Of a stretch of DNA of 64,000 bases, positions 17,578 through 21,616 are shown piece after piece. The stretch lies in contig NZ_JACKZY010000001.1 of the NCBI RefSeq assembly GCF_020833685.1, positions 372,001 through 436,000 of the forward strand, read 5' to 3'. A program made the position numbers and the translations under genes. The stretch comes from Nitratireductor sp. B36 (GTDB lineage Bacteria > Pseudomonadota > Alphaproteobacteria > Rhizobiales > Rhizobiaceae). The notes beneath the pieces are model-generated. The model saw nothing but the letters and a program-made list of their open reading frames with translations. It was not told where the DNA came from and searched no databases. The first letter of the stretch is position 1, and every line of letters starts with the position of its first letter.

Positions 17578-18759
17578 TCACCTCGGCTTCTTGCCGAAAA
17601 CCTTGATGTATTCGGCTTCGCCGCCCTTGGCGAGCGCCTTGGCCTGTTTGACCCAGTCCTCGCGCTCGATGCGGCCATGAAAACTCAGATAGCCGTCGAC
17701 CCATTCGCGCTCGGCCTTTTTCCACTTCGAAACCTGCTCGAAGGTGAAAATGCCCAGATCGTGCAGAATGCCTTCGATCTTCGGGCCGACGCCGGAAATC
17801 ATCTTGAGGTCGTCGGGCTCTGCCGGACGCTCGATGCCGGCCGGACGGTTCTTGTCCTCAAGCGCAGGCTTGGCCGATTTCGCCGGTTTTGCGGCCCCAG
17901 ATACTTTGGGTGCGGTGGCGGTTTTGGGCGAGGTGCCAGGCTTCCTCTTCGGAGCAGCCTTGGCAGAAACAGCGGCGGCTGCCGATGTCTTGCCATTGTC
18001 CGCCTTGACCGGGGACGGCGACTTGATTGCCGGATCGGTTTCGGTGGCAGACGTGTCGGGCTTGGCCGCGCGGGACGGCGGCACCTCGGTGCCTGCGGTC
18101 GCCTTTTTCCGGCTGCCGGGCTTGCCTTTCGTCTTGCCGGTGACGGCCTTTTCGTCGGTCAGTGCGGTCAGGCCGCTCGCCGGGGCCGAATAGATGCGGT
18201 CGATCTGCGGACCGGGTTTGATCGTGTCGCCCTTGCCAGCCTCGAATGCATCGATGATTTCTTCCAGACGCTCGGGCGTCAGATCTTCATAGGTATCCTT
18301 GAAGATCATGACCATCGGCGCGTTCACACAGGCACCCTGACACTCCACCTCTTCCCACGACAGCGTGCCGTCGGCATTGGGGTGAAAGGGTTCAGGATTG
18401 ATCTTCTTCTTGCAAAGCTCGATCAGTTCTCCGGAACCGCGCAGCATGCAGGGCGTGGTGCCGCACACCTGAATGTGGGCGCGGGTGCCAACGGGTGCAA
18501 GCTGGAACTGGGTATAGAAGGTGGCCACTTCGAGCACGCGGATCAGCGGCATATCCAGCATGTCTGCCACATGCTCGATGGCTGCACGCGTGACCCAGCC
18601 TTCCTGCTCCTGTGCGAGCATCAGAAGCGGGATTACCGCCGACTGCTTGCGGTCTTTCGGATATTTGCCCAGCCAGCGCTTCACCTCCCCGTTCATGGCA
18701 CGGGAAAAAGCGAAGCTCTGCGGCTGGACGGCTTCGTCTGCGAGACGGCGGACTGACAT
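17578..18759 (-). CDS. nuoE: NADH-quinone oxidoreductase subunit E with C-terminal HhH extension
   Basis: The first 170 or so residues are a normal NuoE thioredoxin-like [2Fe-2S] subunit: ligands are in VCGTTPC and CQGACVNAP. The protein then continues for more than 200 residues. A linker rich in Ala, Pro, Lys and Thr (about 200-315) ends in a compact domain starting DDLKMISGVGPKIEGILHDL, a helix-hairpin-helix fold like that of predicted flap-endonuclease-like proteins. Total length is 393 residues against about 165-180 for compact NuoE. Extended NuoE is known in rhizobia, but the role of the extension is not. It starts directly after the nuoD stop. Confidence 0.93.
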   Translation of the reverse strand: MSVRRLADEAVQPQSFAFSRAMNGEVKRWLGKYPKDRKQSAVIPLLMLAQEQEGWVTRAAIEHVADMLDMPLIRVLEVATFYTQFQLAPVGTRAHIQVCGTTPCMLRGSGELIELCKKKINPEPFHPNADGTLSWEEVECQGACVNAPMVMIFKDTYEDLTPERLEEIIDAFEAGKGDTIKPGPQIDRIYSAPASGLTALTDEKAVTGKTKGKPGSRKKATAGTEVPPSRAAKPDTSATETDPAIKSPSPVKADNGKTSAAAAVSAKAAPKRKPGTSPKTATAPKVSGAAKPAKSAKPALEDKNRPAGIERPAEPDDLKMISGVGPKIEGILHDLGIFTFEQVSKWKKAEREWVDGYLSFHGRIEREDWVKQAKALAKGGEAEYIKVFGKKPR

Positions 18760-19950
18760 TTATCTGTCTACCTCACCAAACACGATGTCGAGGGAGCCAA
18801 GCACGGCGGCGACGTCGGCCAGAAGATGGCCGCGGCACAGGAAATCCATTGCCTGGAGATGAGCAAAGCCCGGCGCGCGCAGCTTGCAGCGATAGGGCTT
18901 GTTGGTCCCGTCGGAGACGAGATAGACGCCGAATTCGCCCTTGGGCGCTTCCACGCAGGCATAAACCTCGCCTTCGGGGACGTGGTAGCCTTCGGTGTAG
19001 AGCTTGAAGTGATGGATCAGCGCTTCCATCGACCGCTTCATCTCGCCGCGCTTGGGCGGGACGATCTTGCCGTCGGTGTTGGAAACCGGGCCGACACGCT
19101 CCTTGCCGAGCAGCCGATCAACGCACTGGCGCATGATCTTCGCCGACTGGCGCATCTCTTCCATACGGATGAGATAGCGATCATAGCAGTCGCCATTCTT
19201 GCCGACCGGGATGTCGAAATCCATCTCCGGGTAGCATTCATAGGGCTGGCTCTTGCGCAGATCCCATGCCGCACCCGAACCGCGCACCATGACGCCCGAG
19301 AAGCCCCAGGCCCATGCGTCTTCCAGCGTCACGACGCCAATATCGACATTGCGCTGCTTGAAGATGCGGTTGCCGGTCAAAAGATTGTCGAGATCGTCCA
19401 CCGTCTTGTGGAACGGCTCGATCCAGTTGCCGATGTCCTCGACGAGCTGATCGGGAATGTCCTGATGAACGCCGCCGGGGCGGAAATAGGCCGCGTGCAT
19501 GCGCGCGCCGCAGGCGCGCTCGTAAAACACCATCAGCTTTTCGCGCTCTTCAAAGCCCCACAGCGGCGGGGTGAGCGCACCGACGTCCATCGCCTGCGTG
19601 GTGATGTTGAGGAGATGGTTCAGAATGCGGCCGATCTCGGAAAAGAGCACGCGGATGAGCTGCCCGCGGATCGGCACGTCAATGCCGATCAGCCGCTCGA
19701 CGGCCAGCGCGAAAGCGTGTTCCTGGTTCATCGGCGCGACATAGTCGAGCCGGTCGAAATAAGGCACGGCCTGCAGATAGGTCTTGTGCTCGATCAGCTT
19801 TTCGGTGCCGCGGTGGAGAAGCCCGATATGCGGATCAACACGCTCGACCACCTCGCCGTCGAGCTCTAGCACAAGGCGCAGAACGCCGTGCGCCGCCGGA
19901 TGCTGCGGGCCGAAGTTGATGTTGAAGTTGCGGACGGAGTGTTCAGTCAT
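18760..19950 (-). CDS. nuoD: NADH-quinone oxidoreductase subunit D
   Basis: A 396-residue 49-kDa-type subunit that forms the quinone site with NuoB and NuoH. Family landmarks include [18 protein letters not shown] at the N-terminus, HRGTEKLIE and the C-terminal DIVFGEVDR. It is separated from nuoC by the four-helix-bundle element, so its start lies 26 bp beyond the element's edge. Confidence 0.97.
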
Positions 19951-19975
19951 GACGCATGGCCCCTTCGTGGCCAGA

Positions 19976-20003
19976 GCGAATAGCGAATAGCGAATAGCGA
20001 ATA
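19976..20003 (+). repeat. Four tandem GCGAATA heptamers (nuoD side)
   Basis: Four perfect copies of GCGAATA followed by one more G. This is the inverted complement of the array at 20397-20424. It lies 13 bp from the stop codon of the enclosed gene. Confidence 0.95.
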
Positions 20004-20016
20004 GAAAGCGATCCCG

Positions 20017-20385
20017 TCATGCCGATTTTTCCTGTAGTCGCCGGATCATTGATCTGATCATCTTTCCAATCTCTTCAGCCGCCTGGAGCAACTCCTGCAG
20101 CCTGCTTTCTTCCAATAAACTCAAACGCGACGCCAACGTCAGATGCGTCTCTAATTCCTTCAGCGAACCCTGCGCAACGCGCAGAAACTGAATAAAGGCT
20201 CCGGTAAGTTCGCGCCCATGCCCTTCAGCAATGTTCGCCGGTACCGAACCGGCCGCGCGGCGTATCTGACTCGTAAGACCGTAAATCTCTGTTTTTGGAA
20301 AGTCTCCGGTTGCACGATAGCAGTCCGTAGCCAAATCCATCGCTGCTTTCCATATCAGAAGGTCCCTGTACGAGCTGATCGTCAA
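20017..20385 (-). CDS. Four-helix-bundle protein (23S rRNA intervening-sequence / bAvd-like family)
   Basis: A 122-residue, nearly all-helical protein with family hallmarks: an opening YRDLLIWKAAMDLA, then the conserved stretch TSQIRRAAGSVPANIAEGHGR, and a Glu/Leu-rich C-terminal helix. Relatives include the proteins encoded in 23S rRNA intervening sequences and the Avd accessory proteins of diversity-generating retroelements. They form pentameric bundles, and their role outside those settings is unknown. No reverse transcriptase or variable repeat is seen here. The start is TTG with an AGAGAGG site partly inside the putative stem, so folding could control translation. Confidence 0.85.
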   Translation of the reverse strand: MTISSYRDLLIWKAAMDLATDCYRATGDFPKTEIYGLTSQIRRAAGSVPANIAEGHGRELTGAFIQFLRVAQGSLKELETHLTLASRLSLLEESRLQELLQAAEEIGKMIRSMIRRLQEKSA

Positions 20386-20396
20386 CCGAGCCTCTC

Positions 20397-20424
20397 TATT
20401 CGCTATTCGCTACTCCCTATTCGC
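20397..20424 (+). repeat. Four tandem TATTCGC-type heptamers (nuoC side)
   Basis: Units TATTCGC, TATTCGC, TACTCCC, TATTCGC. The third unit has two substitutions. The array starts 11 bp upstream of the enclosed gene's TTG start and ends 5 bp before the nuoC stop codon. Confidence 0.95.
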
Positions 20425-20429
20425 TTCCT

Positions 20430-21032
20430 TCACTCTTTCGCCTTTTCATCGCCGGGCAGAACGTAATCCGTCCCCTCCCATGGCGAAAGGAAATCGAAAT
20501 TGCGGAATTCCTGTCGCAGTTCGACGGGCTCATAGACGACACGCTTCAGATTGTCGTCGTAACGCACCTCGACAAAGCCGGTCAGCGGGAAATCCTTGCG
20601 CAGCGGGTGGCCCTCGAAACCGTAGTCGGTGAGGATGCGCCGCAGGTCCGGATGCCCGGTGAAGAGAACACCGTACATGTCATAGATTTCGCGCTCGAAC
20701 CAGTTGGCCGCGGGAAACACTTCGATGGCGGACGGCACCGGCGTGTCCTCATCCGTCGAAAGCTTCACGCGGACGCGCTGGTTCTGGCGCGGCGAAAGGA
20801 GATGGTAGACCACCTCGAAACGCTTCTGGCGCGAGGGGTAGTCCGCGCCCGAAATGTCGACGAATGCGAAAAACTGGCACTGGACGTCGTTCTTCAGAAA
20901 ATTGAGCACATCAACGATGTCGCCCGGCTCGACCAGGAAGGTCAGTTCGCCATAGGCGACGACCGCATCCTGAATCTGCGCGTCGAGCTTTTCCGTGACG
21001 TATGCCGCCAGGTCCTTCAGCGCTTCGCTCAT
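20430..21032 (-). CDS. nuoC: NADH-quinone oxidoreductase subunit C
   Basis: A 200-residue 30-kDa-type subunit of the peripheral arm. The signature [20 protein letters not shown] followed by [17 protein letters not shown] is intact. The C-terminus ends normally 5 bp before the inverted heptamer array, so the insertion did not disturb the reading frame. Confidence 0.97.
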
Positions 21033-21040
21033 ATCCGCCT

Positions 21041-21616
21041 CTAACGTTCGATCGTGCCGGTGCGACGGATCTTCTTCTGCAGAAGAAGAATACCGTAAAG
21101 CAACGCTTCCGCCGTGGGCGGGCAGCCGGGCACATAGATATCGACGGGCACGACGCGATCGCAGCCGCGCACCACCGAATAGGAATAGTGATAATAGCCG
21201 CCGCCATTGGCGCAGGAGCCCATGGAGATGACGTAACGCGGCTCGGGCATCTGGTCATAGACCTTGCGCAGCGCGGGCGCCATCTTGTTGGTCAGCGTGC
21301 CGGCAACGATCATCACATCCGACTGGCGCGGTGACGCGCGCGGCGCGATGCCGAAACGCTCTGCATCGTAGCGCGGCATGGAGATGTGCATCATCTCGAC
21401 AGCGCAGCAGGCCAGACCGAAGGTCATCCACATGAGCGAGCCGGTGCGCGCCCAGGTGATCAGCGCCTCCGAAGACGTGACAAGAAAGCCCTTGTCGGAA
21501 AGTTCGTTGTTGATGCCCGTGTAGAACGGATCGTCCGAACCGATCGGGTTGCCGGTGTTCGGATCAATCAAACCCTTGGGCTGGGGCGCTACGAGCGTGC
21601 CGTTGTTCAGTCCCAT
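21041..21616 (-). CDS. nuoB: NADH-quinone oxidoreductase subunit B
   Basis: The subunit that carries the N2 [4Fe-4S] cluster donating electrons to quinone. The ligands are in [23 protein letters not shown] and [11 protein letters not shown]. The frame opens at 21637, but the ATG at 21616 ([15 protein letters not shown]) matches rhizobial NuoB and has an AGAAGGGAG site upstream, giving about 191 residues. Because the ATG at 21616 lies past the nuoA stop by reading direction, the overlap with nuoA is only a few bases. Confidence 0.95.

Follow-up and report, generated by a model that had tools for sequence, protein, structure and literature searches.

At positions 19976-20424 of the window, the whole 64,000-nt stretch of DNA analyzed here, a gene for a 23S rRNA intervening-sequence protein (IVP) lies between two inverted arrays of four heptamers each. 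The left arm (19976-20003, plus strand) consists of four perfect GCGAATA units, evident in the sequence and from a repeat search, and the right arm (20397-20424, minus strand), identified in the same way and by its pairing with the left arm in a predicted fold, reads GCGAATA GGGAGTA GCGAATA GCGAATA in inverted orientation. The initial annotation had described exactly four 7-bp units at each end, which is correct for their number but not for their letters: seven of the eight units are GCGAATA and one of the four in the right arm is GGGAGTA, with the units of that arm staying in register on the minus strand. Arms of 34 nt each, 91% complementary and separated by 383 nt, were returned by the repeat search, and the left array was the sole tandem repeat with a period of 5-11 and a score of at least 12 in the 64-kb window; the lag-7 maximum was 23, compared with 7-14 in 20 mononucleotide shuffles. 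The four-helix-bundle gene itself (20017-20385, minus strand), recognized by profile searches and dN/dS, starts with TTG and encodes 122 amino acids. Its flanks, which we take from their translations to be nuoC (20430-21032, minus strand) upstream, with a stop codon 5 nt ahead of the first heptamer, and nuoD (18760-19950, minus strand) downstream, are separated by a 479-bp junction (19951-20429, minus strand) that, by junction comparison, is filled in its entirety by the element. The GC content of the IVP gene is 0.523, versus 0.589 for nuoC and 0.612 for nuoD. The element is co-directional with the operon and is placed after a stop codon and ahead of the ribosome-binding site that follows, which supports the earlier proposal that it inserts between coding regions, and its gene is the single IVP copy in the host genome (4.19 Mb, 9 contigs). 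Further along the window, 17578-18759 (minus strand) encodes what appears by eye to be a NuoE-like protein of 393 amino acids with a long low-complexity C-terminal extension.

To our knowledge, the four-helix-bundle IVP family is common and has no known function. The protein of the window matched Pfam 23S_rRNA_IVP (E 4.6e-37; 126.9 bits against a cut-off of 33.8) and NCBIfam TIGR02436 (E 3.3e-37; 127 bits against a cut-off of 24), while bAvd and the DGR accessory protein Avd fell below their cut-offs (27.5 bits versus 40 and 28.1 versus 80). No catalytic domain was found in the IVP, the gene matching only IVP/Avd-type models, and no transposase or recombinase is encoded between the arms, where the IVP gene stands alone. 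A tblastn search of 50,697 phage records at 1e-5 gave 0 matches. Comparison with the congeneric copies in genomes G200 and G255 gave dN/dS values of 0.16 and 0.10, and values of 0.05-0.19 were obtained across 14 close, hand-picked IVP pairs, some of them with saturated dS, which indicates that the gene is under purifying selection; four copies (L027, L053, L087 and L108) are broken by stops. The gene is probably expressed by read-through of the operon. By sequence comparison its solved relatives are XCC0516 (PDB 2gsc), at 4e-32, and 2rld, at 3.3e-12, and the available passages of PMC4990558, citing Lin et al. 2006, describe Xanthomonas XCC0516 as a homopentamer of four-helix bundles.

In the predicted RNA fold of 19951-20432 the two arms pair, with a minimum free energy of -185.1 kcal/mol versus a shuffle mean of -157.8 (z -4.57), a value as low being reached in 0 of 100 shuffles. 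No Rfam family matched at gathering score within 19000-21500. This predicted stem is the one line of evidence here for a possible cutting of the element's mRNA by RNase III, and likewise for the idea that the RNA of the element may control translation. We also considered whether the purpose of the unit is to supply stops in all frames: 19 of 29 distinct units carry a stop on the inward strand, against a permutation mean of 14.3 and a maximum of 21, and as letter permutation alone thus reaches up to 21 stop-bearing units the idea is weak; the unit GGCAGTC has no inward-strand stop.

Among 297 genomes of the same bacterial family, 94 contained the IVP gene, at 119 places (122 matches before adjacent pieces were merged), compared with 0 of 14 control genomes. 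Eight places were left out before their arrays had been seen (two ordinary, G196 and G272; two at contig ends, G275 and G155; two in pieces, G130 and G133; two weak or partial, G025 and G155), and 111 were analyzed. This revealed a tandem array of 7- or 8-mers scoring at least 9 on at least one side of 100 of the 111 copies and on both sides of 64, versus 4 of 946 control windows drawn from these loci. In the best 80 of at least 549 GTDB relatives, whose hosts are mostly Alphaproteobacteria, with Acidobacteria, Planctomycetes, Chloroflexus and Cyanobacteria in addition, an array scoring at least 10 was present on at least one side in 72 and on both sides in 49, compared with 13 of 1153 control windows, and of the periods 5-11 that were tried the arms reaching this score had only 7 (110 arms) or 8 (11 arms). 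The initial annotation had held that an absence of heptamers near other family members would speak against an element, and these two surveys found the reverse. Chance repeats are rejected on the basis of shuffles, the control windows and a reversed-pattern control in the host genome. We further fetched 11 copies from the 30 plasmid records with a match, ten of them from cyanobacterial or other non-rhizobial hosts, an Azospirillum among them. An array scoring at least 10 accompanied nine of these on at least one side and seven on both; the Stanieria and Azospirillum copies scored 8 on each side, and that of Calothrix PCC 7716 has an array on one side only, 117 nt off. Plasmid IVP genes of Nostoc, Calothrix and Anabaena carry heptamer arrays, and one plasmid copy lies between ribonucleotide reductase genes. 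In L180 (Pseudanabaena galeata pPg_01) both arms run in the same direction, that is, they are direct and not inverted. As a separate observation, the IVP genes and heptamer arrays of L176 (Anabaena sp. 90 pANA02) and L180 are found between cas6 and cas4 of CRISPR operons.

The sequence of the unit differs among elements, yet both arms change together. In the 64 of 111 loci with both arms scoring at least 9, the two arms shared a period in 63, had an identical unit in 46 and were no more than one base apart in 61, whereas shuffling of arm partners produced a mean of 5.4 identical pairs and never more than 13 of 64. When the units were mapped onto a tree of 107 IVPs, built from a short alignment of 126 columns and with 51 of its 103 inner forks open, the seven types with at least five rows, which label 72 of the 107 rows, required 12 changes, compared with a shuffle mean of 48 and a minimum of 43. 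Lineages marked by GTGAATG (13 rows, SH-aLRT 98) and, at nuo, by GGCAGTC (5 rows, SH-aLRT 100) each span many genera. Unit and lineage do not correspond strictly: GGCAGTC marks a separate lineage at an ATP-grasp site as well, and GTGAGTA appears in several regions of the tree. At the nuoC-nuoD junction, the heptamer unit tracks the protein lineage and not the host: across 42 of the 53 nuo loci the partial correlation of unit with IVP given host was 0.52 (reached in 0 of 2000 permutations), while that of unit with host given IVP was -0.05. Within the genus of the window's host, that host, G200 and G255 carry the GCGAATA lineage, G136 carries the GTGAATG lineage with GTGAATA as its best unit, and G040 lacks the gene. 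Near-identical hosts may also hold different lineages at this one junction. G211 and G060 are 98% identical in NuoC/D and 51% in their IVPs, with GTGAATG and GGCAGTC units, respectively, and G229 and G094 are 99% identical in NuoC/D and 60% in their IVPs, with GCCAGTC and GTAAGCC. Flank homology extends up to the nuoC stop codon in both pairs; in G229/G094 it picks up again about 16 nt upstream of the nuoD start and in G211/G060 twelve bases inside nuoD.

The 111 copies occupy ten sites, with neighbours named from one representative each: nuoC-nuoD (53), glutamine synthetase/FAD oxidoreductase (25), circularly permuted ATP-grasp/alpha-E (23), acyl-CoA dehydrogenase/3-hydroxyisobutyrate dehydrogenase (4) and six single sites. 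Four junctions therefore hold 105 of the 111 copies. At these recurrent sites both neighbours are co-directional with the IVP gene in 104 of 105 copies, one neighbour of the last copy not having been found; an FAD oxidoreductase-like gene is nearby at the single sites L092 and L111, on the opposite strand in L092. Of 8 annotated copies on cyanobacterial plasmids, 3 run antisense to the genes on either side. At the nuo loci, the left array starts at the stop codon or a few to tens of bases away. A survey of the 30 best nuoC matches showed nine loci with the gene, 13 with a gap of 0-24 bp and one without nuoD in the stretch; the congeneric G040 has a junction of 17 bp with no IVP gene. In another six (L130, L139, L141, L143, L145 and L146) the junction is gene-less and 228-636 bp long, perhaps with other small reading frames, which suggests that nuoC-nuoD takes different inserts, and by eye L142 (G268) appears to be a decayed element that keeps a 3' piece of the gene and one intact GCGAATA array. 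In genus g73 the acyl-CoA/hydroxyisobutyrate dehydrogenase junction is empty in G271 (25-nt gap) and filled in G217, G073 and G155, with right arms of about 8, 2 and 12 units, so that heptamer number does differ among copies; in G155 the array itself provides the stop codon. No target-site duplication was seen by eye at this junction or in the nuo pairs, so the comparison of relatives called for by the initial annotation yielded empty sites and no visible duplication. Moved pairs are few, namely a gene-less core in G177, described below, and L012 versus L073 in G142 (82% protein identity). Empty sites and copies at other junctions dispose of the outcome first named as refuting, a gene fixed at one place in all relatives. 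With 105 of the 111 copies at four operon junctions, there is no support for the gene-bearing form dispersing freely; this concentration argues against free movement and is as compatible with long residence as with recent movement. In both strains of Flavobacterium columnare, a four helix bundle gene is placed at a further operon-like junction, between the genes for guanylate kinase and nicotinate-nucleotide adenylyltransferase in the passages of PMC5524665 available to us.

Arrays also occur without the gene. In the host genome the pattern GNGARTAGNGARTA had 39 matches in ten places, the element of the window included, and the reversed pattern had 0. Gene-less inverted pairs lie at rpsM-rpsK (named by eye) and at atpD (Pfam)-atpC (by eye); others adjoin aspS and an esterase-like gene (C1:508579-508731). 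Two stretches of this genome, G000:C1:601112 (L169) and G000:C2:507799 (L171), are nearly identical to each other; each surrounds one GCGAATA-type array whose flank is rich in hairpins, and they represent another type of dispersed repeat with heptamers in it. Three consecutive GBSARTV units were found in 128 of the 297 family genomes, with at least one match in 80 of 94 gene-positive versus 48 of 203 gene-negative genomes, at least five in 73 versus 25 and at least ten in 67 versus 18, the elements' own arms being included in these counts. Fourteen of the 94 gene-positive genomes had no match, some of them having 8-mer units outside the pattern, and gene-negative genomes with arrays include G273, G281, G008 and G129; the reversed pattern matched in 24 of 297 genomes, mostly 1-3 times, but 34 times in G142 and 26 times in G174. 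With own arms subtracted, arrays of the resident unit were enriched elsewhere in the genomes that hold it: GTGAATG in 12 of 12 holders versus 15 of 68 others (p 2.9e-7), GGCAGTC in 7 of 8 versus 13 of 72 (p 1.6e-4) and GCGAATA in 12 of 16 versus 27 of 64 (p 0.025), p-values that assume an independence the genomes do not have, although the 12 GTGAATG holders span 11 genera. This comparison covered 80 of the 94 gene-positive genomes; the other 14 were set aside because the genome was incomplete, the gene was in pieces or its unit was not clear, three of them (G043, G134 and G275) to keep n at 80. Reversed controls gave one match each in 1 of 80 genomes for GCGAATA, 0 of 80 for GTGAATG and 22 of 80 for GGCAGTC, so that single GGCAGTC matches may be chance. 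Units do not match the resident gene in G060 and G127. In G177 three copies of a gene-less core of 100 nt share 96-100% identity. Two of them belong to a duplicated segment; the third, with unrelated flanks, occupies the junction of the acyl-CoA and hydroxyisobutyrate dehydrogenase genes (named by eye from the flanks of L302), which in g73 carries gene-bearing elements, so that the core is 96% identical between two unrelated junctions. A search of five other genomes did not find it. G031 has a gene-less GGCAGTC pair directly 3' of nuoC. Internal deletion of the IVP gene was considered as the origin of gene-less elements and, with the exception of L142, is not supported, as a tblastn search with IVP proteins of the interiors of 20 gene-less elements gave a best E of 0.013. 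G064, G241 and G177 each have 140-210 heptamer-triple matches, with some arrays of at least a dozen units, and are candidates for recent bursts.

Compared with rRNA intervening sequences, the element has complementary, stem-forming ends and an S23p/IVP gene inside, as some of those sequences do, but it lies between nuoC and nuoD and not in a 16S or 23S rRNA gene, which makes it a variant of the intervening sequences and not a member. In MITE and REP-type elements, as here, gene-less inverted-repeat copies outnumber one gene-bearing source. The element of the window differs from a MITE in having no transposase, no target duplication that we could see and ends made of tandem arrays of varying length, and of the marks of a transposon neither target-site duplication nor an encoded transposase or recombinase was found. 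Cyanobacterial STRR sequences are tandem heptanucleotide arrays in relatives of Nostoc; they resemble the arrays beside cyanobacterial plasmid IVP genes in general description. The TAACTGA heptamers of Beggiatoaceae, Cyanobacteria and Bacteroidetes are, in the portions available, dispersed, mostly intergenic and often near start codons, show indels in 7-nt steps between close strains and are sporadic across phyla (PMC4679880); they share with the elements here a dispersed, tandem heptamer makeup and differ in that nearly all are direct-repeat sets, and the words helix bundle, intervening and 23S are absent from the PMC4679880 text. Geobacter metallireducens has a family of 49 elements, each with four tandem heptanucleotides (GGACCGG), located inside genes as well as in the gaps between them; they are described as predicted RNA elements of regulation, with no inner protein gene in the passages available (PMC2700814). 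The closest published relative that we found, in the parts of the source at hand, is the 23S intervening sequence of Coxiella burnetii, which is about 430 nt long and sporadic, contains an S23p gene between complementary ends and is excised by RNase III (PMC4990558). Tandem GACAGAT units, three (two in some strains) with a degenerate one, stand directly upstream of S23p, an open reading frame called decaying, in reductive evolution and probably not expressed (PMC4990558). Protein family, heptamers upstream of the gene and complementary ends are thus shared with the element of the window; the Coxiella sequence, in these parts of the paper, sits in the 23S rRNA gene, with the heptamers as a strain difference and no array described at the other end (PMC4990558), whereas the window's element is in a protein operon, has arrays at both ends, is under purifying selection and has gene-less relatives. 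Among the best matches listed in the open-access literature, to which our search was mostly confined, subscription papers lying largely outside it, there was no link of the IVP family to both-end arrays or to protein operons. The initial annotation's statement that no description was known agrees with this result, although it had left unmentioned the heptamers upstream of the Coxiella S23p gene.

We read the locus as a mobile, intervening-sequence-like element of protein operons, in which a heptamer array, an IVP gene and an inverted heptamer array follow one another, and put the probability of this reading at about 0.55; the family of such elements is widespread and probably mobile. The reading draws on the plan of the element, the agreement of its two arms, filled as well as empty junctions, distinct lineages at one junction of almost identical hosts, the tracking of protein lineage by unit, purifying selection on the gene, the surplus of same-unit arrays in genomes with the matching gene, the G177 core and the predicted RNA fold. 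The IVP, whose solved relative is a pentamer, would bind its cognate heptamer array as DNA or RNA, and this binding may enable it to propagate the element itself and also, acting in trans, array pairs that lack the gene, with catalysis presumably supplied by a host or partner enzyme. The arms would form a stem in the mRNA that may be cut by RNase III, as in 23S intervening sequences, or looped out, and the insertion would thereby be harmless to its neighbours. The heptamers may, as was first proposed, be a recognition signal, which fits the co-variation of unit and protein. Against this reading count the lack of a catalytic domain, of a visible target-site duplication and of any gene but IVP, as do arrays without the gene, unit mismatches, units that recur in separate lineages and the direct arms of L180. 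We are more tentative about a stronger form of this reading, possible but in our estimate rather doubtful, that these are a distinct class of mobile element in which a lone four-helix-bundle protein with no known catalytic domain recognizes a lineage-specific array of 7- or 8-base units, brings the element into operon junctions and spreads gene-less pairs in trans, and of which the heptanucleotide repeats of several phyla and the 23S intervening sequences would be branches or leavings.

Several of the same observations would suit a resident regulatory module, in which IVP made from the operon binds the heptamer stem of the mRNA and tunes its own expression and that of its neighbours at old, inherited sites with losses: the dN/dS of the 14 pairs, the co-direction with both flanks at recurrent sites and the restriction of such sites to four. 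We consider this unlikely, given that unrelated lineages occur at the same site of near-identical hosts, that the neighbours (nuo, glutamine synthetase/FAD oxidoreductase, ATP-grasp/alpha-E, acyl-CoA and hydroxyisobutyrate dehydrogenases) have no common function, that some plasmid copies are antisense to both neighbours and that empty sites are common. Passive tracts of recombination and slippage, whose arms allow RecA-type swapping of inner segments while the IVP gene is carried along stably without acting on them, would explain why array copy number varies among close relatives, why arrays persist in gene-negative genomes and why neither transposase nor target duplication is seen. They would leave unexplained the purifying selection on the gene and a unit type that tracks protein lineage given host, and homology of shared arms cannot account for arms and gene that differ jointly between near-identical hosts, which makes this account improbable in our view. 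The single gene-bearing copy in the host genome would agree with an ordinary small gene beside chance or local repeats, with no element at all, but the arrays are family-wide, matching arms exceed controls and the reversed pattern in that genome gave 0 matches against 39 for the forward one, leaving such a coincidence a very slight probability.

A protein lineage that has its own 7- or 8-base array at both ends of its gene offers a direct test of IVP function, in the form of array binding. The rule that unit follows lineage is one possible explanation for the dispersed heptanucleotide repeats of bacteria. It also places the long-puzzling 23S rRNA intervening sequences within a broader family, which in the genomes examined here resides in protein operons.
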